In this document: piece after piece, positions 1,296 to 29,935 of the stretch | How the letters are laid out: every line of letters begins with the position of its first letter | Position numbering within the stretch: position 1 is the stretch's first letter | NCBI RefSeq assembly: GCF_937910335.1 | Contig: NZ_CALEMX010000284.1 | Span: 1 to 32,379, forward strand | Direction: 5' to 3' | DNA from: an uncultured Gimesia sp. | Lineage (GTDB): Bacteria; Planctomycetota; Planctomycetia; Planctomycetales; Planctomycetaceae | Length of the DNA: 32,379 nt | Notes under the pieces: model-generated | Told to the model about the DNA's origin: nothing | Databases searched by the model: none | The model's input: only the letters and a program-made list of their open reading frames with translations | Translations under genes and position numbers: made by a program

Positions 1296-3350
1296 TCACT
1301 TTTTCGCGTCATTCACAGGAATGAATTTCAGTTTTGCCAGCCATTCAAGTGACTGTGTCTGCCACGCATCCCACATGGGTCCCTTGTAACCATTCAGACC
1401 ATGCCCCCCCGATGGCAATTCAAGATACTTCGCAGGGACTTTTTTCGCTTGCAACGTTTGAAAGAAAACCTGGCTATTGACAGGCGGCACTGGTTTATCG
1501 TCGAGGGCATGCGCCAGAAACACAGGCGGCGTTTGCGCTGTAACCTGCTTTTCATTCGAGAATAAATCAATCAGTTTTTGCGATGGGTCTGGCCCTAGTA
1601 GATTCTTCCGAGAACCTTTGTGTGTATGTTTCCCCATTGTCACCACTGGATAAACCAAAATTCCAAAATCAGGACGACTGCTCTGGCGATCGATCAGATT
1701 GTCCGCCTCGGGATTGCCCGCGTCATAATGCGTCACCGCCGTTGCCGCCAGATGACCGCCCGCAGAAAAACCCATGATTCCAACACGTTTTGGGTTGATC
1801 TTCCAGCGTTTGGCATTGGCCCGGACCATGCGGATCGCCTGTTGCGCGTCCAGCAGAGGCACAAAGGACCGACCGGCTGGCAGGCGATATTCCAGCACGA
1901 CTCCTGTAATTCCATGAAGATTCAGCCATTGGGCAATTCCATGACCTTCGGCGCCGGTGACTAATCGACCGTACCCACCACCAGGGCAGATGATGACCGC
2001 CGCGCCGTTGCCGTTTGCTGCACGATGCACGGTGATCTTCGCATCTGACTTCTCGAATTGGTCCTCACCAATGGGTGCTTTGCCAGTCCAAAGTGGCACG
2101 GCTTGCGGTTTGAGTTCATTGCGGGATGTGGATGAAGAAGTCGTTGGCGGTATGAGCAGGGTCGAGAGCACCTGTGCGTAAACGCGATGTCCAAAATCAT
2201 TCGGGTGATTCACACCATTGCCGGTCAAATCCCAATCCTGTTTTCGCTTCAGGAATTCTGTCCAGATCGAAGTCATATCAGCCAGTGCGACACCCGTTTC
2301 ACATAGTTCTGACAGCGCATCGCGGTACTGAGGAAATAAATCATGGTTGAGACGAATCCAGTTTCGATTGCCGAGCATCGTAGCCACAAGTATGAATTCG
2401 GTTTTGGGTAATTTTTCACGTATCTTTTCCATAACCGCTTTTGTGTTCGCCTGATACTCTTTCGCAGAACGCCCGGCGGCATCGTTCATGCCAAACGCGA
2501 TAATAACCAGATCGGGTTCGGGCTGAACCACCTTATCAATGGCCCCCAGTACCCAGCGCGTATCTTTGCCACTGACTGAGGGGTTTGTAACTTTAACTTT
2601 GGTTTGGTAACGCTCTCCCAGATGTTGTTCTAACAGACCGGCAAACATCGGTTGATACGGCGCCCCGCCAGCCCAACCTGATGCATTACAACCAGCAGAA
2701 ATACTGTCGCCAATCAGCACAATGGAAACCGGTTCGCGCTTGCGTAACTTTTGGATCGTGCGAGGCAACGCTTTCTCATTAAATGTCGGCACAATCCCGT
2801 TCCAGTCGATCGGTGCATGCTTGTAAGTGATGCAGGTCTGCATGTCGTGATATTCAAGTTTTGCTCCGAAAAAGATCTCACCGTGTCCATCACGATGCGT
2901 CAATTTGTGGCGCTGCGAACCGGCAGGGCGACGCAGTTGGGTCCACATGCGCGAAGTGATTCTTGACTTCTTCGGAAGTATGATTTCACGAGATCCAGGC
3001 TTCCAGAGATAGTCCCGGCCCTCTTCATAAGTGATATCACCCGCCGAATTGCGTACACTCAGGACTTTCTCCACAGGAAACAGCACGGACGCTTTCGTAT
3101 TCCCTGTTTTCAGATCGCGGATAAACAGCATCGATTCACCTTCAATGGTGTCACCACGCCAAAACGGTCTTAAGAGTTCAGGTGCGTACTTCCACTTTGA
3201 TGGTGTTGGATCGGCGGCCAGCGACGTTGCCGCTCCCAGCAAAAATAGAATGCAGACATTCATGATACCAATCAGGAACCGCTCTTTTTTTACAACACCA
3301 GTTGCGTAATGAGACAGGCGCCGATGACAATTCAATAAATACTGTTTCAC
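1296..3350 (-). CDS. Secreted two-domain esterase: SGNH/GDSL hydrolase fused to alpha/beta hydrolase
   Basis: This 684-residue exported protein has two hydrolase domains. The signal-like segment is residues 25-46, ending SLAA before Asp47. Residues 50-190 are a beta-rich region without a clear family. Residues 205-400 form an SGNH domain: block I GDS with nucleophile Ser216, block III GMND with Asn289, and a block V-like NHPND with His382. Residues 415-675 form a BD-FAE/acetylxylan-esterase-like alpha/beta hydrolase: oxyanion motif PGGGYG (456-461), nucleophile elbow GFSAG with Ser529, acid Asp617 or Asp618, and His650 in SGGHG. Both triads look complete. Such domains normally remove acetyl or other ester groups from plant or algal polysaccharides, so the fusion could strip two kinds of ester; the substrate is inference. 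The start is GTG, with GGAG six bases upstream. Confidence 0.9.
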   Translation of the reverse strand: MKQYLLNCHRRLSHYATGVVKKERFLIGIMNVCILFLLGAATSLAADPTPSKWKYAPELLRPFWRGDTIEGESMLFIRDLKTGNTKASVLFPVEKVLSVRNSAGDITYEEGRDYLWKPGSREIILPKKSRITSRMWTQLRRPAGSQRHKLTHRDGHGEIFFGAKLEYHDMQTCITYKHAPIDWNGIVPTFNEKALPRTIQKLRKREPVSIVLIGDSISAGCNASGWAGGAPYQPMFAGLLEQHLGERYQTKVKVTNPSVSGKDTRWVLGAIDKVVQPEPDLVIIAFGMNDAAGRSAKEYQANTKAVMEKIREKLPKTEFILVATMLGNRNWIRLNHDLFPQYRDALSELCETGVALADMTSIWTEFLKRKQDWDLTGNGVNHPNDFGHRVYAQVLSTLLIPPTTSSSTSRNELKPQAVPLWTGKAPIGEDQFEKSDAKITVHRAANGNGAAVIICPGGGYGRLVTGAEGHGIAQWLNLHGITGVVLEYRLPAGRSFVPLLDAQQAIRMVRANAKRWKINPKRVGIMGFSAGGHLAATAVTHYDAGNPEADNLIDRQSSRPDFGILVYPVVTMGKHTHKGSRKNLLGPDPSQKLIDLFSNEKQVTAQTPPVFLAHALDDKPVPPVNSQVFFQTLQAKKVPAKYLELPSGGHGLNGYKGPMWDAWQTQSLEWLAKLKFIPVNDAKK

Positions 3351-7805: not shown

Positions 7806-10800
7806 TTATTTCTGCTTAAGCCGATAGTTCGGAATTTCAGGCAACTCCCATAATGTTGCCCCCCCATAAGAGGTAGTAATGAATGACTTATTATCGGGAA
7901 GGAAAACAATGTTTTTGACTTCATCAAAATGATGTATAGGCTCAATGATTGCTTCACCGGTTCTGGTGTCCCAGACACGTGCATGATAATCTTTGCTACC
8001 CGTCACTAATCGTTTCCCATCAGGACTGAATACAACGACAATGACCTCTTCCTCATGCTTGAGTGGCTTCCCTTTGATCTTACCGGTAGACACATTCCAG
8101 ATCCGTGCAAAACCATCGCGGCATCCGGTGACAACCGTTTTACTGTCAGGACTGAAGGCCACGACGTCTACCACGTCTTCATGCTCCAATCGTTTAATTG
8201 GTTGTGCGGTAGAAACATCCCACAAGAAAGCGGCATCAGCATAGCAGCCGGTAAGGATGAGCTTTCCATCAGGGCTGAAGGCGCTATCTTCCACAGACCC
8301 ATCATGCCTGAGTGGCTTTCCTACTTGTTTTCTTGTTTTCAAATTCCATAAATGCCCCTTTGACCCAGCCAGCGAAAGCATATACTTACCGTCCGGGCTG
8401 AATTTGATATCTTGAATCGAAGCCTCATGCTGAAAAGGCTCTCCCTGCGGTTCTCCAGTTTCTGCATCCCATAAACGAACTGTCTTGTCCCATCCACCGC
8501 TGGCTACCGTTTTTCCATCAGGATGAAACGCAACATGCATGACATATTTATCATGCTGAAGTACCTTTCCTTTTGGCTTGGATGTGTTAGTACCCCACAG
8601 TCGGGCCGTCTGATCTTCACTTCCTGTGATGACAGTTTTACCATCAGGAGCAAAAGCGGAATCATAGACCGCTTTAGTATGCTTTAGAGATTTTCCCTTC
8701 TGTGTCCCTGAAGAGATATACCAGAGCTTGGCCAAGCCATCATTGCCCCCCGTCATCAGCACCTTTCCATCGGGACTCAGTGCGATCTGGTTAATAAAGG
8801 AACCATGCGGAAATTCTCGAATTTCGGCTGCTCTTCTACGTATTGCCAGTGGCTTTTCATACGGTTGCCCCTCCAGGGCGTCCCATAAATAGACAGCGTC
8901 TACACTTCCCGTAGCGATTGTTTTCCCATCGGGAGAGAACGCAACAACACTCACTGCCCCCGCATGCTGAATTGGCATCCGGGTTATGAAGCCGCTTTCG
9001 ACATCCCATACATAAGCCAGTTCACCGGCTGCTGAGATCATCGTCTTGCTGTCAGGACTGATAGCAAGATGGCTGACCTTACTTTCATGCATAAAGCCGT
9101 ATTCATACATTTCACGCGTGATTGCATCCCAGAGGTGGATCGTCTTATCATCACTTCCCGTTGCAATCATCTTGCCATCTGCAGTGAAAGCAATCACCTT
9201 CACTCGAGCTCGATAATTGAACGATTTATATTTCTGAAACTGACCACTGGCAACATCCCACTGAATTACGGCTTTCCCTGGCCTGTCGCAAACCACAAAT
9301 TGACGATCCGGATTCAACGAGAATCCCCGATGGTAAAAACTATTTTTGATAGGTTCGCCTAATGATTTTTCACTGATAGCGTCCCAGAGTTGCGTTTTCC
9401 CCATTTTGGATACAGCCAGCGTTTTGCCATCATAACTGAATGTGCGACTCTCCCGTGGATCTATCTCAGAAAAAGCCTCGCCCTTGAATCGACCCGTGTT
9501 CACATCCCAGAGACGCACCCGCTTGTCGACGTACTCGGTCAGCACATCATCACTTCCGGTAACAACCGTCTGTCCGTCATCTGAAAAGGCAACGGAAGTC
9601 ACAGGGCCACGATGCTTCCAGGGTTTTCCAATCGATTTACCGGTCTTTGCATCCCAGAGCTGAGCCGTAAAGTCTTCACTGCCTGTCACGATCTTTTGAC
9701 CATCGGGGCTGAATGCAATCGAATGCACAGGACCATCGTGCTGAAGTTTACCATGAAATACGGGAGGAAAATTCGTGGTACCAGCTGTCGCTGCTTTTGA
9801 TGTATTTTTAGGTGGTACTTCCGATTTAGGAATGGCTGTTGTTTTACTGTCAGCATCTTTCTTGCCAACTCTCCACAGTAATATAATTTTTCCACTGGCT
9901 GTCACCGCTGTCTTACCATCCGGACTGAAAGCAACGTCATTCACGACCTCTTTGTGATAGAACAAATTACCGATTTTTTCATTCGTTGCTGCATCCCACA
10001 TCCATGTTTCACTACCGCCTGTTAAAATGGTTTTTCCGTCCGGGCTATAGACGGCTGAATGAAAGGTGATTGTCGGCTTAAGTGGCTTTCCTTTAGGTTG
10101 ACCACTGGCGATATCCCATTGCCGGACTTCGCCCACTGATCCCGCCAATAAAATCGTTTTACTGTCAGGGCTGAAGGTGACCGAAACAACCTCTTTAGGA
10201 TGTTTGAAGACTTTTGTCAGAGGTTGTTTTGTCACGGTATCCCAAAGTTGAGCCATGCCTTCCTCTAAGACTTTACCTCCTCCGACTGCCAAGTACTTTC
10301 CATCGGGACTGAAAGCAACTGTTTTGATAAACGGTTTAATGTCCAGTTCTTCACCAATTTTCTGACGACTTTTCACATCCCAGAGCTGCACATCATATCC
10401 ACTGACTGATGCGAGAATTTTTCCATCAGGACTGATGGCCAGATCTTTCACTTCACTATTAAGCTCTAAGGGATCACCAATGGGCGCCCCAGTTTCCACA
10501 TTCCAGAACCGAAGGTTGTAATCATCATCACCCGTAATCACCGTTTTTCCATCGGGACTGAAAGCGACTGTATTCACATAAGACTCGTGCTTAAGAGGTT
10601 TCCCGATCAGCTCCCCCGTCTCAACATCCCACAGACGCGCGGTATTATCATCACTGCCTGAGATCAGGGTTTTACCATCAGGACTGAACGCCACCGCTCT
10701 CACTTCATCACGATGTTTGAGGATGTCAACCGTTAGCTGATCTTTTGAAACATCCCACGTCAGATGTTTTTTGAGGCTTTCAGGATCATATTTCTTTGCC

Positions 10801-13043
10801 TCTTCAGAGAGCGGTATTTTTCCTGTTTCCCAGATGCGGACAGAAGTACCACTGACAGAAAGCACAGATTTGCCATCCGGGCTGAAGGCGACCGAGTTGA
10901 TCGAATCTGTATGCTGAAGTGGCCCTGCAATCGGACGACGGCTCGCAACATTCCAGATAAATGCGGTCTGATCCTTGCTGCCGGTAATGACAGTTTTACC
11001 ATCGGGACTCTGATCAAGATCATTGATCGAATCCTGATGCTGAAAAGCATCGCCGAGAGATTCACCAGTCTCGCTGTTCCAGAAGTGAACCGTCTTATCT
11101 TTGACTCCGGAAAGGGAATCAGAAAAACTCATAATGGACCCCGAGGTCATTAATGTCTTCCCATCTGCGCTGAATACAACTGATTCTACAACCCCTTTAT
11201 GCACACATGGCTTCCCCTTTGACTTTCCGGTATCAACATCCCAGAGTCGAGCCTGGTTTGTTATACTCCCGGTAGCGATGGTCTTCCCATCCGGACTGAA
11301 GGCGACTTTGATTACAGGTCCGTTCTGTTTGAGCGTTTCACTTTTAGGCTGTCCCGTTTTGAGATCCCACAATCGAGAGCCTCCCATACTACCAATCAAA
11401 ACAGTCTGGCCATCGGGGCTGAATACCGCGGAAAGGATAAGGCCCGGATTCTTCAAGAGGTCTCCTTTTGACTGGCCAGTAGCGATATCCCACTTCAAGA
11501 GCTTTCCGTCTTCGCTCCCTAAAATAAAAGTGTTACTGTCAGATCCGAACAGAACGACGCTCAACTTTTTATGGTTAATCGGCTCCCCTTTCTGTTGTCC
11601 AGTGGCAGCATCCCATACATGGATTGCACCACCGAAGCCGTTCGTCACTACCAGTTTCCCATCCGGACTGAAGACCGCGCCATAAACATTCTTTGGATGC
11701 TTTAAGATGATCTCTCCCAGTGGACCACGTGGCGCATTTTTACGGGAGGTCATATGGTTCTTGCTTCCTGTTACGGATTTTTTACCTTGATTCGAATTGG
11801 TAGATGTCGTTTTCGTCTGTTTCTTCTTTTGGGGAAGTCTTCCCGTTGATTGCAAGGTAGCAGTACTTACCAGATAGGCCGCGTCCTTGCATCCTACTAA
11901 TGTCTTTTGACTATCGGGGCTGAAAGCAAAGGTCTGGATTACATTATCATGTGAAAGTGGTTTCGCTTGGGGCGTATTGCCCGTGAGATTCCAAAGTACA
12001 AATGACTCTTCTCCTTTTTTATAATATTTCGCAATGACACTTTTATTATCAGGAAGGAATGAGAGTTCCCGAATCTCATCTTGATACTTGAAAGGCTTCC
12101 CTTTGATCTTTTTGCTGTCAAAGTCCCACAAATAAGCAGCGCCATCTTTCGTACCCGTCACCAAATTCTTACCATCAGAACTAAGAGCCACCGCACTGAC
12201 TTCGGAATCATGTTGAAAAGAGTCCTCTTTAAGTTGCCTGCTGGCTACATCCCACAGACTGAGTGACTTCGTTCCTGTTGCCGTGATGAGAGTCTTGCCA
12301 TCTGGACTCATTGCGAATGACTTGATATAGGAACTTCCATTCTCAAGGGGAGGATTCACTAGAACCCGACTACTTTCAACATCATAAAGATATAAAGCGT
12401 TTTTACTGACAGCAAACAGTGTCTTACCTTCAGGACTGAATGAGAGATGTAAGACAGGCCCTTTTACATGTTCTTTTACTCCTTTTCTTTTTCCTGTTGC
12501 GACATCCCAAAATAAAATAGTCTTGTCTGTACCTCCTGTAATCAAAGTTTTGTTATCAGGACTGAAGGCTACTGCACTGATTCGGCCAAATAAATGCCCG
12601 ACTGACTCTCCCTTAGCCTGCCCGCTGTCAGCATTTACAAGGAGCGCTGTACCGTCATGACTCGCCATAACCAGTGTCTTACCATCGGGACTGAAGGCTA
12701 TTGTTTCGACGGGACCTCGAAAGCGAAACGGTTTCCCTTTGGGTTTACCACTGGCCACATCCCACAACCTCGCTGATTTGCCGTTCCAACTTCCTGTGAC
12801 TACTGTTTCGCCATCAGGACTGAAGACTGCAGTAATCACTTCTTTTTGATGCTCAAGTGGTCCTTCGTATTGCGGTATCTTCGCATGCTTTTTATCACCA
12901 GATTGTTCTTCCTTTTGACAGGCAACGGTAAAAGCAACAGAGAGAAGTACGGCTAAGAATTTGATAACCTCGATTGCGCTGGAGCGATATCCGGATTTTA
13001 TTATTTTTTGTGGCTCAGGAAATGACGTCGGTTGCATACTCAT
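7806..13043 (-). CDS. Giant WD40-repeat lipoprotein (about 37 repeats)
   Basis: This 1745-residue exported protein is almost entirely WD40 repeats. The N-terminus has a hydrophobic stretch (residues 27-41) ending in TVAC, with Cys42 as probable lipidation site, followed by an acidic/Lys-rich tether. I count 37 repeats of about 43 residues with the core FSPDGKTxxTGSxDxTxxLWD. Low-complexity linkers at about residues 394-442, 738-770 and 1058-1094 split them into groups of 8, 7, 7 and 15. Groups of seven match one closed propeller each, so four or five propellers in a row are likely. Propellers of this kind are binding scaffolds; no enzyme domain is visible. The start has GGAG seven bases upstream of the ATG at 13043; a second ATG at 13037 is also possible. 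The DNA keeps a clear 129-base periodicity, so recombination between repeats is plausible. The binding partner is unknown. Confidence 0.93.
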   Translation of the reverse strand: MSMQPTSFPEPQKIIKSGYRSSAIEVIKFLAVLLSVAFTVACQKEEQSGDKKHAKIPQYEGPLEHQKEVITAVFSPDGETVVTGSWNGKSARLWDVASGKPKGKPFRFRGPVETIAFSPDGKTLVMASHDGTALLVNADSGQAKGESVGHLFGRISAVAFSPDNKTLITGGTDKTILFWDVATGKRKGVKEHVKGPVLHLSFSPEGKTLFAVSKNALYLYDVESSRVLVNPPLENGSSYIKSFAMSPDGKTLITATGTKSLSLWDVASRQLKEDSFQHDSEVSAVALSSDGKNLVTGTKDGAAYLWDFDSKKIKGKPFKYQDEIRELSFLPDNKSVIAKYYKKGEESFVLWNLTGNTPQAKPLSHDNVIQTFAFSPDSQKTLVGCKDAAYLVSTATLQSTGRLPQKKKQTKTTSTNSNQGKKSVTGSKNHMTSRKNAPRGPLGEIILKHPKNVYGAVFSPDGKLVVTNGFGGAIHVWDAATGQQKGEPINHKKLSVVLFGSDSNTFILGSEDGKLLKWDIATGQSKGDLLKNPGLILSAVFSPDGQTVLIGSMGGSRLWDLKTGQPKSETLKQNGPVIKVAFSPDGKTIATGSITNQARLWDVDTGKSKGKPCVHKGVVESVVFSADGKTLMTSGSIMSFSDSLSGVKDKTVHFWNSETGESLGDAFQHQDSINDLDQSPDGKTVITGSKDQTAFIWNVASRRPIAGPLQHTDSINSVAFSPDGKSVLSVSGTSVRIWETGKIPLSEEAKKYDPESLKKHLTWDVSKDQLTVDILKHRDEVRAVAFSPDGKTLISGSDDNTARLWDVETGELIGKPLKHESYVNTVAFSPDGKTVITGDDDYNLRFWNVETGAPIGDPLELNSEVKDLAISPDGKILASVSGYDVQLWDVKSRQKIGEELDIKPFIKTVAFSPDGKYLAVGGGKVLEEGMAQLWDTVTKQPLTKVFKHPKEVVSVTFSPDSKTILLAGSVGEVRQWDIASGQPKGKPLKPTITFHSAVYSPDGKTILTGGSETWMWDAATNEKIGNLFYHKEVVNDVAFSPDGKTAVTASGKIILLWRVGKKDADSKTTAIPKSEVPPKNTSKAATAGTTNFPPVFHGKLQHDGPVHSIAFSPDGQKIVTGSEDFTAQLWDAKTGKSIGKPWKHRGPVTSVAFSDDGQTVVTGSDDVLTEYVDKRVRLWDVNTGRFKGEAFSEIDPRESRTFSYDGKTLAVSKMGKTQLWDAISEKSLGEPIKNSFYHRGFSLNPDRQFVVCDRPGKAVIQWDVASGQFQKYKSFNYRARVKVIAFTADGKMIATGSDDKTIHLWDAITREMYEYGFMHESKVSHLAISPDSKTMISAAGELAYVWDVESGFITRMPIQHAGAVSVVAFSPDGKTIATGSVDAVYLWDALEGQPYEKPLAIRRRAAEIREFPHGSFINQIALSPDGKVLMTGGNDGLAKLWYISSGTQKGKSLKHTKAVYDSAFAPDGKTVITGSEDQTARLWGTNTSKPKGKVLQHDKYVMHVAFHPDGKTVASGGWDKTVRLWDAETGEPQGEPFQHEASIQDIKFSPDGKYMLSLAGSKGHLWNLKTRKQVGKPLRHDGSVEDSAFSPDGKLILTGCYADAAFLWDVSTAQPIKRLEHEDVVDVVAFSPDSKTVVTGCRDGFARIWNVSTGKIKGKPLKHEEEVIVVVFSPDGKRLVTGSKDYHARVWDTRTGEAIIEPIHHFDEVKNIVFLPDNKSFITTSYGGATLWELPEIPNYRLKQK

Positions 13044-13389: not shown

Positions 13390-14586
13390 TTACGCCAATG
13401 ATCTATCCCGATTGCTGAGAACGACGATGTGTCCCATCACCTCTTCGCCGTATTCCATTCTCAAGAACTCTTCGTGATGAACGTCTACTGTTAATCCTGC
13501 AGATCGGGCGACTTGCTTGATATACTCGAAATGATGTGCGTACCGCCCGGAATCAGTCAGCTCATATCCGGGTTGCTCGCACCGTTCAACACTGAAAGCA
13601 ATCGCGCCACCTCTTTTCAAGAGTTGCGATGCTGGCTGAATGACCTGTGATAAATCACCAAAATAAATCAGTGTGTCGCAGGCAACAATCAGGTCATACC
13701 GTTTACCTGCCTCAGATTCGATTATTGCTTCAGCCCCTTTCAGCCAGGATGTAATTTCGGCGACTTCCAGAGAATCGTACAAATTTCGTTTGCGTGCCAT
13801 AGATATCATCTCAGAGGAAAGGTCGATGCCATCCAGCACACCGGCACGCTCGCGCAGACGTTCTCCTGAGAGTCCCGTGCCACAGCCCAGATCAAGAATC
13901 TTCAAATCCGTACGTCCCGGGAAGACCAGTTCGATTGCTTCGCTCAGTTTTTCAGGAACCACATATTCAAGCTCTTCGATCAAATTCGAATCATAGAAAG
14001 AAGAAAATCGTTCGTAGAGCTGCTGAATACACTTGTCGGGCATACGAGAAGGTGGTGCTTCGTCTCGCAGCGCCACGAGAATGTGCTGGACCTCTGCGTC
14101 GTCGGGTTCAATGGTCAGATAATGTTCATAGCTGTTTCTGGCTGCTTCACGCTGCCCGGCTATATGTGCCAACTCGCCCAGGTCTGCCCATTTGGAAGCA
14201 CACTCAGGTTTAAGTTCAGCCGCCTGTTTCTGACACAGATACGCTGTCTGGATCTTACCTCGCTCTCGCAGTCGATCGGCCAACTTAGCCAGTTGATCGG
14301 CTGATAATGACTCATGTTTCGTGGGTTTACCATGACCGGAAACCAACAGGTCGTTCTCAAGTGCTTCACTAACCCACGCGCGCAAGGCGGCGGTTTCATC
14401 TTTGGGTAAAAGGGCACGAACCAATGATTCAATCTGTTCAATCTCGCGTGTACCATCACACAACTCAACGATCAAAGAGGCGGTTGCGTTGAGTCGATGC
14501 AATCGATCCGTTTCCGTATCGTAGGCTACGTAACCATCAGCTAGGGGCGATACGAGAACCGTGCTTTTGAGTCGTGGTTTGAGCAT
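13390..14586 (-). CDS. PqqD-TPR-methyltransferase fusion protein
   Basis: From the ATG at 14586 this is 398 residues in three parts. Residues 1-85 match a PqqD-like domain (GYVAYDTETDRLHRLNATAS, then ELCDGTREIEQIESL). Such domains form the leader-peptide recognition element in peptide-modifying enzymes. Residues 97-172 form helical TPR-like pairs. Residues 185-398 form a class I S-adenosylmethionine methyltransferase: motif I LDLGCGTG (231-238), acidic loop GIDLSSEM (253-260), and motif IV-like CDTLIYFG (303-310). A TTG at 14667 would extend it by 27 residues, but that extension would be encoded across a strong hairpin (14617-14651), so I prefer the ATG. The upstream gene on the same strand encodes a Tat-exported Gly/Lys-repeat protein, a natural candidate substrate. 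That pairing is inference. Confidence 0.88.
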   Translation of the reverse strand: MLKPRLKSTVLVSPLADGYVAYDTETDRLHRLNATASLIVELCDGTREIEQIESLVRALLPKDETAALRAWVSEALENDLLVSGHGKPTKHESLSADQLAKLADRLRERGKIQTAYLCQKQAAELKPECASKWADLGELAHIAGQREAARNSYEHYLTIEPDDAEVQHILVALRDEAPPSRMPDKCIQQLYERFSSFYDSNLIEELEYVVPEKLSEAIELVFPGRTDLKILDLGCGTGLSGERLRERAGVLDGIDLSSEMISMARKRNLYDSLEVAEITSWLKGAEAIIESEAGKRYDLIVACDTLIYFGDLSQVIQPASQLLKRGGAIAFSVERCEQPGYELTDSGRYAHHFEYIKQVARSAGLTVDVHHEEFLRMEYGEEVMGHIVVLSNRDRSLA

Positions 14587-14616
14587 CAGGAAATCTCGGT
14601 AGAGGAATCGAAAGAA

Positions 14617-14651
14617 ACAGGCCGGATAGCGGAAAATACTTCCCGGCCTGT
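14617..14651 (-). terminator. Hairpin between the Gly/Lys-repeat gene and the methyltransferase gene
   Basis: The nine-base arms ACAGGCCGG (14617-14625) and CCGGCCTGT (14643-14651) pair perfectly, with a 17-base loop. On the minus strand the stem is followed by TTCTTTC. It lies 81 bases after the stop of the upstream gene and 30 bases before the methyltransferase ATG. It looks like a terminator or attenuator that would allow the upstream gene to be transcribed more than the enzyme. Confidence 0.65.
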
Positions 14652-14732
14652 GAACTTTCAGAATCAAACCGTTTTCAAAATAGTATTAAGAAAGACGGCT
14701 CAGCAAACATGTATTACGAAACGATCGTTGAG

Positions 14733-15101
14733 TTATTCCTCGTCATTTCCGCTTCTTTCACCCTTTCCTTTGCCGCTGCCTTTTCCTTTTCCACCACCTT
14801 TGCCCTTACCTTTTCCTTCGCATCCACCACTACCTTTTCCTGATCCACTGCTACCCTTTCCAGATCCACCTTGATTTCCTTTCCCTTTTCCTCCACCACT
14901 ATTGCTGCCTTTGCCTTTGCCACCGCCTTTACCTTTGCCACCTCTTTGCTCAAGCTCTTCAGCAAACGCCGTTGACGACATCAAAGGTAAAGCAGCGGCA
15001 GTAGCCGTACCAAGCAGTATCTTGCGCAGAAAATCACGTCGATCCGGATCGACGTGCGAAAGTGTGTTCTCAATCGATTCGATCAGTTCCTTGTCAGTCA
15101 T
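14733..15101 (-). CDS. Tat-exported Gly/Lys-repeat small protein, candidate modified peptide
   Basis: This gene encodes 122 residues. Residues 1-20 are an acidic helical leader (MTDKELIESIENTLSH). Residues 21-27 (RRDFLRK) and the following hydrophobic stretch to AFA (residues 45-47) form a twin-arginine signal. From residue 54 on the protein is almost only Gly, Lys and Ser in GKGKG/GGGKGKG units, with a single Cys93, and ends acidic. GGGAGAG lies about six bases before the ATG at 15101, which decides against an ATG 15 codons upstream. The Tat signal implies export after folding or cofactor loading in the cytoplasm, or after modification there. The next gene encodes a PqqD-methyltransferase. 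A Lys-rich target plus a methyltransferase suggests N-methylation, which is speculation. It could also be a nucleic-acid- or polyanion-binding surface protein. The biased composition makes homology searches unreliable. Confidence 0.8.
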   Translation of the reverse strand: MTDKELIESIENTLSHVDPDRRDFLRKILLGTATAAALPLMSSTAFAEELEQRGGKGKGGGKGKGSNSGGGKGKGNQGGSGKGSSGSGKGSGGCEGKGKGKGGGKGKGSGKGKGERSGNDEE

Positions 15102-27846: not shown

Positions 27847-28872
27847 TTAGTCTTCTGTCTGAGAATCCACCTCAGGATTCCATTTTATTACTGCTTCTTT
27901 TGCCTTTTTCAAATTCAGCTTATGTCTGTTACGATCTAATTTACTGACTATTATTAAAAGAATGGTGAACCAAATACACATCAGACAAACGTTGGAGATC
28001 ATATTCTGTGGTTCTGGAAAGTCTATTATTTTGAGAATGATAATGCCGATTAAACCCAACGCACCCCAACAAAAAAGAAAGATCAGCATCTGCTTGAGAT
28101 CTCTGTCTGCACTGATTCGACGGCCGACCATCCCGCGTTTGGGTATCGAGTAACGAAGCAACAACCAGAACCCAATCGGAATTACAGAAACTCCTAAATA
28201 TCGAGGAAATCGAAAGTACCAAGCCGCTAGTGCGGTACAGATTATGGAGAGAATACTGAGAGGAATGCCGAATCGGTCATAACGTTTGCGTGTAATTAAT
28301 ATTTCATCCGGACCTGGATCTCGAAAGACCTTCGGCTGAGGATCGCGCAGTGGAATTGCGATTTTCAGGCAGAACAGGTCCCAGTTCTGCTGAATGGATT
28401 CGGGTAAATGACTCTGGAAATATTGAATCAGCCACAGCCGTTCTTCTCGCTCAAAATTTTCAAAATAGATCGATATTTTTTCCGTCAAGCTCTTTAAGGT
28501 GATACCTCCCCCTTGAACCAGATTCCAGCGGGCCTGTTTGACACTTGATAGATCGATCTCTTTTCTGAAAATCACTCCTTGCTGTATGACGCTTTCATTT
28601 TGAATCGTAAGGGATTCATATTTGTAAGCGAGTAATATCCATAGATTAATACCTGGGAAAAATGAAAACATAAAACACGCAAAAGCAATATCAAAAAAAT
28701 TATTCAGAGCCAGCACCTTGTCCCACATCGCATATGCTGCACCAATAGAAATCGACGTGTAGAAGATGAGACCAATGATTCCCAAGTTGCGATAGTATTT
28801 TCTCTCCCGAAACACTCTCACAACACCATCAATTTCAGTGATTTCTGTTGAACTTGTACCATCAGCTTCCAC
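27847..28872 (-). CDS. Membrane protein with PH-like domain, paralogue A
   Basis: This 341-residue protein starts at GTG (28872) with a GGA-type ribosome site. Two membrane helices (about 30-50, 58-83) precede a soluble segment (85-155) whose ESLTIQNESVIQQGVIFRK and IDLSSVKQAR pattern resembles the bacterial PH-like domain. Further hydrophobic segments lie at about 202-220, 225-240, 262-283 and 290-311, and the tail is charged. The family is unknown to me. The neighbouring upstream gene encodes a paralogue 55 bases away on the same strand. Residues 139-206 are nearly identical in the two copies (about four differences), while the flanks are much more diverged. Confidence 0.8.
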   Translation of the reverse strand: MEADGTSSTEITEIDGVVRVFRERKYYRNLGIIGLIFYTSISIGAAYAMWDKVLALNNFFDIAFACFMFSFFPGINLWILLAYKYESLTIQNESVIQQGVIFRKEIDLSSVKQARWNLVQGGGITLKSLTEKISIYFENFEREERLWLIQYFQSHLPESIQQNWDLFCLKIAIPLRDPQPKVFRDPGPDEILITRKRYDRFGIPLSILSIICTALAAWYFRFPRYLGVSVIPIGFWLLLRYSIPKRGMVGRRISADRDLKQMLIFLFCWGALGLIGIIILKIIDFPEPQNMISNVCLMCIWFTILLIIVSKLDRNRHKLNLKKAKEAVIKWNPEVDSQTED

Positions 28873-28927: not shown

Positions 28928-29935
28928 TTACGGACAGTCTTTCCACTGCTGCACGGCCTTTTTTGATTTTTCCAGATCCATCAGCTTATTGGAACGAATT
29001 AATGGACGCGCTTTGACAAAAAGAAACACCATATAAATGAGCATCAAACAATTGCCGAGAATCGTATGTTGTGGTTGGGGAAGGATTGGCAATCTGTATG
29101 TAATGAGAAGAATAATGACTAGACCAATCCACCAGCCGAGTAATTTGACTACTTCCATCGACTCTTTATCTGAACCGATCTTTGAAAAAACTTTACCCTC
29201 TTTGGGTATCGAGTTACGTAACAGTACCCAGAATATAATGAGAATAACTGGCATTGATAAATACTTGGGATGTTTAAAATACCAAGCCGTTAAAACGCCA
29301 CAGATAATTGAGATGATAATGAGAGGAATGCCGAATCGGTCATAACGTTTACGTGTAATTAATATTTCATCCGGACCTGGATCTCGAAAGACTTTCGGCT
29401 TAGGATCGCGCAATGGGATTGCAACTTTCAGACAGAACAGGTCCCAGTTCTGCTGAATCGATTCGGGTAAGTGACTTCTAAAGTATTGAATTAGCCAAAG
29501 TCGGTCTTCTCGCTCAAAGTTAAGTAGATGAACCGATCCCTTTTCAGTCAATGTCTTTAAAGTCAGGACACCACTTCCGATCAGTTTCCATCGGGCCTCG
29601 AGAACACGCGACAGGTCAATCTCCTTGCAGGAAAACACGCCCTGTAGAATCACAGTTTCTTTTTGGATTGTGATCGATCTATACTGGCAAACCAGAAATG
29701 ACCAAATAAATATACCTACCAGAGGCGACCATATCACACTAAATGCGATAACAGCGAACATCTTCGAATCCGGATGTGCCATAAACCACATCAGGTACGT
29801 AGAGCCGGTTCCAAACAGTGTGAAGAAGATCAGAGAAACGAGTGCCTCATTGCGATCACTTTTCTTCGTGCGAAATATTCTAGCAATACTGTCGTTTTTA
29901 GTGATTTCTGTTGTAGTCGGTTCGTTGCTTTTCAC
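28928..29935 (-). CDS. Membrane protein with PH-like domain, paralogue B
   Basis: This 335-residue protein aligns without gaps to paralogue A over at least the first 206 residues. It has the same layout: two N-terminal membrane helices, a PH-like soluble segment (YRSITIQKETVILQGVFSCK), a highly conserved central block (LPESIQQNWDLFCLK, then FRDPGPDEILITRKRYDRF) and further membrane helices. The start is GTG at 29935 and the ribosome site is poor. It is the first gene of the pair. Two non-identical subunits of one membrane complex are a possibility, not a demonstration. Confidence 0.8.
   Translation of the reverse strand: MKSNEPTTTEITKNDSIARIFRTKKSDRNEALVSLIFFTLFGTGSTYLMWFMAHPDSKMFAVIAFSVIWSPLVGIFIWSFLVCQYRSITIQKETVILQGVFSCKEIDLSRVLEARWKLIGSGVLTLKTLTEKGSVHLLNFEREDRLWLIQYFRSHLPESIQQNWDLFCLKVAIPLRDPKPKVFRDPGPDEILITRKRYDRFGIPLIIISIICGVLTAWYFKHPKYLSMPVILIIFWVLLRNSIPKEGKVFSKIGSDKESMEVVKLLGWWIGLVIILLITYRLPILPQPQHTILGNCLMLIYMVFLFVKARPLIRSNKLMDLEKSKKAVQQWKDCP

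Follow-up and report, generated by a model that had tools for sequence, protein, structure and literature searches.

Why would a small exported protein rich in glycine and lysine, fitted with a twin-arginine (Tat) signal, be encoded next to an enzyme that joins a PqqD domain and a TPR region to a methyltransferase? This question is raised by a locus of an uncultured Gimesia sp. (contig NZ_CALEMX010000284.1), of which the whole stretch of 32,379 nucleotides that was analysed is called the window here. The answer that we consider probable is that both genes form one leader-guided modification unit, in which the PqqD domain would grip the leader of the small protein (the precursor) and the enzyme would methylate its core, most likely at lysines, before export. 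The features involved are collected in Table 1.

Table 1 Features of the precursor-enzyme pair in the window and of the two SET-domain loci in other genomes.
Feature	Position	Strand	Basis or remark
Precursor gene, Tat Gly/Lys-rich protein, 122 aa	14733..15101	-	ORF and translation, ATG start; TIGR01409
Acidic n-region, aa 1-20, proposed recognition leader	15042..15101	-	Leave-one-clade-out leader profiles; composition
L-x-x-[I/V] motif (LSHV), aa 14-17, proposed PqqD contact	15051..15062	-	7 residues before RR
Tat signal RRDFL and hydrophobic stretch to AFA, aa 21-48	14958..15041	-	TIGR01409, aa 20-47
Gly/Lys/Ser core, aa 49-122, proposed methylation substrate	14736..14957	-	Composition; core dN/dS
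Hairpin between the genes, possible partial terminator	14609..14652	-	-20.7 kcal/mol
PqqD-TPR-class I methyltransferase, 398 aa	13390..14586	-	Pfam; own clade in methyltransferase-domain tree
PqqD domain	14353..14532	-	PF05402, residues 20-79 of the 399-residue frame searched
TPR region	14068..14271	-	TPR_9, residues 107-174, below curated cut-off
SAM-binding methyltransferase core	13606..13899	-	Methyltransf_25, residues 231-328
Tat Gly/Lys and SET-domain locus, G500	L211 5478-7168		
Tat Gly/Lys and SET-domain locus, G571	L210 4849-6810		

A sequence-only reading of this DNA had described the first protein as an acidic leader followed by a Tat signal and Gly/Lys/Ser repeats, and all three parts were recovered. 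The n-region of 20 residues contains six D/E and one K/R, RRDFL follows from residue 21, and the Tat domain reaches 20.0 bits with the NCBIfam model TIGR01409, above its cut-off of 16.7. By eye, the signal ends in a signal-peptidase-like AFA site. The core, counted from aa 50, is 47% G and 21% K with 15 overlapping GKG, and His is absent from it. The same reading had placed an enzyme with PqqD, TPR and methyltransferase parts 3' of the precursor on the same strand, which the Pfam matches bear out: PF05402 scores 29.1 bits (cut-off 23.4) and class I methyltransferase models up to 50.3 bits (cut-off 27), while TPR_9, at 27.7 bits and E 2.8e-6, does not reach its cut-off of 35. The enzyme start is best placed at the ATG, as the TTG at 14667 merely opens the longest frame. 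Across nine aligned members of the enzyme group, the SAM-binding motifs are kept throughout (D-x-G-C-G-T-G and D-L-S invariant), and PqqD is matched at E ≤ 0.001 in seven of the nine (Pfam). Comparison of the window with a close relative gave dN 0.025 and dS 0.369 for the precursor (94% identical), 0.012 and 0.417 for its core alone, and 0.071 and 0.336 for the enzyme (88% identical). Both genes are thus under purifying selection, and the Gly/Lys repeat is strongly constrained, though its length varies.

The enzyme was searched in overlapping samples of 59 relatives, 397 genomes of the class, 392 of the phylum and 170 of the family, as well as in 14 genomes from the class to which G423 belongs and in 45 from the G055 family, again overlapping. 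A PqqD-bearing enzyme was found in 11 genomes (G000, which is the window, G004, G055, G299, G792, G180, G308, G346, G281, G586 and G423), belonging to three families (f1, f2 and f42) and two classes of one phylum, with f42 in the other class. Two outcomes had been named as speaking against the proposal, namely that the pair is not conserved in relatives and that the enzyme always stands beside other genes. Instead, a Tat Gly/Lys gene directly adjoins the PqqD-bearing enzyme in 10 of the 11 genomes, and only in G281 was no precursor detected. In G346 the precursor and the first PqqD residues lie at the end of contig C332 and the remainder of an enzyme at the end of contig C28, the two enzyme pieces presumably being parts of one gene. 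Lack of a precursor in G281, where the PqqD enzyme is intact and the precursor profile detected nothing in the genome, argues against a unit. A twelfth genome, G223, argues for it, as only about 23 last residues of the PqqD domain are left there and the profile again detected no precursor in the genome.

Within the family sample of 170 genomes, the precursor profile matched at E ≤ 1e-10 in seven of eight enzyme genomes and in none of the 162 others (Fisher p 1.1e-11, a value that overstates the case because the genomes are related). In the class sample (397 genomes, presumably the same as in the enzyme search), all seven precursor matches at E ≤ 1e-5 fell in the nine genomes of the enzyme clade and none outside it. 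In a phylum sample of 334 genomes, the profile matched G000, G004, G423 and G586, and in addition G571 and G500, which are discussed below. This co-occurrence is partly circular because the profiles were built from genes adjoining the enzyme, and very divergent lone precursors could escape them; the precursors of G346 and G792 were both found, enzyme-adjacent, by a profile not yet containing either. Weak matches (E 1e-4 to 1e-3) in seven genomes of the family, in open frames of 418-594 aa, were ruled out as precursors: L112-L115 are by eye Tat-tagged oxidoreductase-like proteins, and in L109-L111 no Tat ORF was read in the right frame.

The pairing and co-evolution of precursor and enzyme are shown by these patterns, and the pair stands above chance because it recurs in distant relatives and purifying selection acts on both its genes. 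Planctomycetes commonly have Gly-rich ORFs and G281 has no partner, so that one may ask whether the neighbourhood is accidental or the Gly/Lys frame a low-complexity artefact. Such an explanation is scarcely credible against the adjacency in 10 of 11 genomes, the recovery of held-out leaders (see below) and a precursor dN of 0.025 at a dS of 0.369; chance neighbourhood was rejected on the adjacency itself.

Among 46 methyltransferase ORFs in the checked loci (some being one gene in two loci), five carry a PqqD domain, two are the cut G346 and the truncated G223 members, and 39 are without a PqqD profile match, so that a TPR-methyltransferase alone was rejected as a marker. Beyond the genome samples, at least 80 viral loci were matched, none among the matches listed aligning before query residue 154, and none of 43 plasmid records covered 80% of the query. 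On reading two unannotated alphaproteobacterial plasmid loci, no Tat Gly/Lys gene was seen. When a tree was built from the methyltransferase domain without the rest of the enzyme (28 rows), one branch (98/94) separated the 12 clade members from the other rows, which are TPR-methyltransferases. The four EF-hand precursors (G299, G792, G308 and G346) all go with one enzyme sub-clade (97/95), and precursor architecture therefore follows the enzyme. In these precursors a single EF-hand-like stretch lies inside the Gly/Lys core (L076 7882-8280 and L078 6003-6542, both on the minus strand; L092 1495-2004; L100 1016-1411), and in one of the four it exceeds the Pfam cut-off. The enzyme of G281 has as its neighbour a Sec-type, Gly/Pro-rich EF-hand ORF (L079 8153-8911, minus strand), which may have taken the place of the precursor or be unconnected with the enzyme.

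The relatives of the enzyme in the PDB include N- and O-methyltransferases of small molecules as well as tRNA enzymes, and the substrate class cannot be read from sequence. An AlphaFold model (pLDDT 51.5, two rows) was too poor for a fold search or for leader-PqqD binding. Across the ten aligned precursor cores, lysine with glycine on both sides is the constant reactive feature, with GKG rarer in G586 and G423 (three each). A further indication comes from G500 and G571, two genera of one other family, in which Tat Gly/Lys proteins stand beside a SET-domain protein. After the Tat motif these proteins have 17 (G500) and 26 (G571) lysines, the G571 gene being cut by the contig end, and the SET genes are divergent from them at distances of 92 and 330 nt, respectively. 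The SET domain (PF00856) scores 34.4 and 37.7 bits against a cut-off of 22.4, and the two SET proteins are 51% identical. No match to the PqqD enzyme at E ≤ 1e-20 was found for either genome among the matches listed for the phylum sample of 392. Among solved structures, the G500 protein comes closest to SETD3 and Rubisco LSMT and, more weakly, to SETD6; this enzyme thus appears to resemble protein Lys/His N-methyltransferases, whose fold is non-homologous to class I. Lysine is a likely acceptor because two unrelated methyltransferases adjoin the same kind of exported Gly/Lys protein, and the SET loci may be another such system, unrelated to the first. This argument comes from two loci of one family, and the Gly/Lys likeness may be convergent.

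Alternatively, the enzyme could modify the precursor elsewhere (the N-terminus, Arg, Ser, Asp/Glu or the C-terminus) or act as one step of a pathway. Which acceptor is used does not follow from a class I fold, each of the ten precursors has one to nine Arg after the Tat motif, and acidic residues occur in the cores as well. We regard this as unlikely given the constancy of the Gly-flanked lysine and the resemblance of the SET enzymes beside similar proteins to Lys/His N-methyltransferases, with no His in the window core. Lysine methylation within the proposed unit stays the preferred reading of the core.

The leader is the second part of the argument. Leader profiles were tested by leaving out one clade per round over the first 50 alignment columns, with the Gly/Lys core excluded, on 42 unique ORFs (seven precursors and 35 others); the precursors of G004, G308 and G423, whose longest frames begin far upstream, lay outside this set. 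The held-out clade scored 28.0-60.0 bits in six of six clades and the best other Tat-like ORF 18.9-22.5. When the profile was cut down to the n-region (24 columns), five of the six clades still stood out, at 8.3-25.7 bits against at most 4.2, and held-out G586 fell to 1.9 bits, under three background ORFs. In these held-out tests, conservation of the leader does not depend on the core. RR-x-F-L is found in all ten precursors (TIGR01409 at E ≤ 0.1 in eight), and in all ten an L-x-x-[I/V] motif begins exactly 7 residues before RR. A motif of this kind at -7 or -8 was found in one of 32 background Tat-like ORFs, many of them mechanical, and in neither of the two SET-linked precursors. In the available part of PMC12710340, RREs of the PqqD group are reported to bind W/Y/LxxP/L/I motifs. 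L-x-x-[I/V] would fit this description and is put forward here as a proposed contact only.

A conserved motif directly before the twin arginines could also be read differently. Signal-peptide-binding Tat chaperones are known, and the PqqD-TPR part might mainly be a proofreading chaperone, with the methyltransferase acting elsewhere or being regulatory. That the SAM-binding motifs are kept in nine of nine aligned members, and that in the SET family another methyltransferase occupies the same place, makes this quite improbable. A leader that guides the modification is again the reading followed here.

In the window, precursor and enzyme are separated by 146 nt, within which a hairpin with a 10-bp GC-rich stem and the tail TTTCTTTC is predicted. 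None of 200 shuffles of the spacer (148 nt folded) was as stable as the native sequence (z -3.87), a comparison that covers the window spacer. The terminator-like hairpin of the sequence-only reading is thus partly borne out, as a stable stem, and its standing as a proven terminator was dropped since a simple terminator scan of the window did not list it. Strong spacer stems are predicted in the window, G004, G055, G299, G792, G180 and G346, with T-rich tails after them in G792 and G346. The outer stem is identical in the window and G004 hairpins, and no compensatory change is claimed. The order of precursor before enzyme with a hairpin in between, as claimed earlier, applies to most members and fails in G308, where the precursor lies downstream of the enzyme, and in G586 and G423, whose 36-nt spacer forms a weak stem only. 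In most lineages, such predicted stems fit a higher output of precursor than of enzyme.

From these genes we infer binding, methylation, lysine as the acceptor, their order, export and a final role as follows. The small protein would be made with a leader in front of its Tat signal, and the PqqD domain of the enzyme would bind this leader, most likely via the L-x-x-[I/V] beside the twin arginines. With the enzyme tethered in this way, its class I methyltransferase part could methylate many positions of the flexible Gly/Lys core, lysine side chains being the most likely targets. As long as the leader is bound, the Tat signal would be shielded, and export would wait until the modification is complete. 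The modified protein would exit by Tat and act outside the cytoplasmic membrane, perhaps as a surface or matrix polymer, basic and resistant to proteases or able to bind polyanions, with one EF-hand in some lineages. Matrix formation, adhesion, polyanion binding or, with the EF-hand, calcium binding are guesses at its role there. Export by Tat would be reasonable in this scheme because the product would need finishing inside the cell. In a broader version, planctomycetes would use a strategy so far overlooked: lysines of Gly/Lys polymers would be hyper-methylated in the cytoplasm before Tat export, with the n-region as leader; two unrelated methyltransferase folds (PqqD-TPR-class I and SET-domain) would have been recruited to the same task, and Tat rather than Sec would be used because the product is finished first. 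This is conceivable and somewhat short of probable.

Compared with known systems, the pair comes closest to RRE-guided RiPP pathways, in which a PqqD-type domain lies in or beside the modifying enzyme according to the available parts of PMC7470986 and PMC12710340. As far as these parts describe them, shared features are the fusion of the PqqD domain to the enzyme and a small precursor, encoded next to it, whose leader motif is conserved, and both are present here. In contrast to those pathways, the leader of the pair precedes a Tat signal, the core is a long Gly/Lys repeat (62-135 aa among the PqqD-linked precursors, long for a RiPP), and the sole recurring enzyme is the TPR-methyltransferase, with no recurring peptidase or transporter by eye. 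PqqD domains are known from PQQ synthesis, and with the PF05402 match in mind the precursor could instead be consumed, a peptide cofactor or small product being cut out of it and tailored by the methyltransferase. A single small product would hardly be drawn from a long low-complexity core, and in the neighbourhoods inspected by eye the pair has no other recurring gene next to it, which makes consumption very improbable compared with the export of a modified polymer.

Other likenesses are more distant. Bufferins and other DUF2282 precursors, paired with DUF2063-type RREs and MNIO enzymes (PMC12710340, PMC12452194), likewise combine an export signal with an RRE in the parts of these sources available. 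Unlike the pair described here, they have a Sec signal, an iron enzyme and no methyltransferase; the words Tat, PqqD and methyltransferase are absent from PMC12452194 in a whole-word search, and neither a DUF2282-type nor an MNIO match was obtained for the pair among the Pfam and NCBIfam matches listed. Methylation of many lysines of an exported protein is described for KmtA/AtaA and the rickettsial OmpB methyltransferases in the available part of PMC11784438. Those substrates are large adhesins, unlike the precursor, with no RRE or Tat leader described in that part, and no methyltransferase named as KmtA- or OmpB-type was found among the 60 of 84 PDB matches of the enzyme listed. TPR-methyltransferases without PqqD, which we take to be COG4976-like, share a homologous TPR and methyltransferase part (about 35% identity among the ten plasmid records listed), and differ by the lack of a PqqD match and a separate tree branch. 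GrrA/GrrM combines an exported Gly-rich repeat precursor with an adjacent radical SAM enzyme. Here the enzyme is instead a class I methyltransferase, and no Grr model was matched by the pair among the NCBIfam matches listed. A literature search, with subscription journals outside its scope and some sources available in part, found no system of a PqqD-methyltransferase and a Tat precursor among the entries listed, and the terms "methyltransferase" and "twin-arginine" are absent from the available part of PMC7470986. Based on this comparison, the pair looks like an undescribed form of RRE-guided modification and may belong among the RiPPs.

If this proves true, leader-guided peptide modification and Tat quality control, usually separate fields, would be joined, and bulk lysine methylation of proteins that bacteria export, of which few cases are known, would gain a dedicated precursor-enzyme pair. 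The proposal would also give a testable reason for the use of Tat by a repeat protein that appears to be unfolded, and a candidate role for one branch of the TPR-methyltransferases. The motif and the profiles make the system searchable in other phyla.

Several further genes were noticed. In the window, a gene of 1745 aa with WD40-like repeats by eye (7806-13043, minus strand) separates the enzyme from the hydrolase gene that comes next. In the close relative L033 enzyme and hydrolase gene are adjacent, and this 5.2-kb WD40-like gene has therefore been inserted or lost. A long ORF at 1296-3350 (minus strand) presumably joins GDSL-type and alpha/beta-hydrolase-type parts, as judged by eye. In L051/L103 (G172:C74), two TPR-methyltransferase genes without a PqqD match lie close together on the same strand. 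Finally, neighbouring and similar membrane-like proteins (by eye) at 27847-28872 and 28928-29935 of the window (minus strand) appear to be a tandem duplication.
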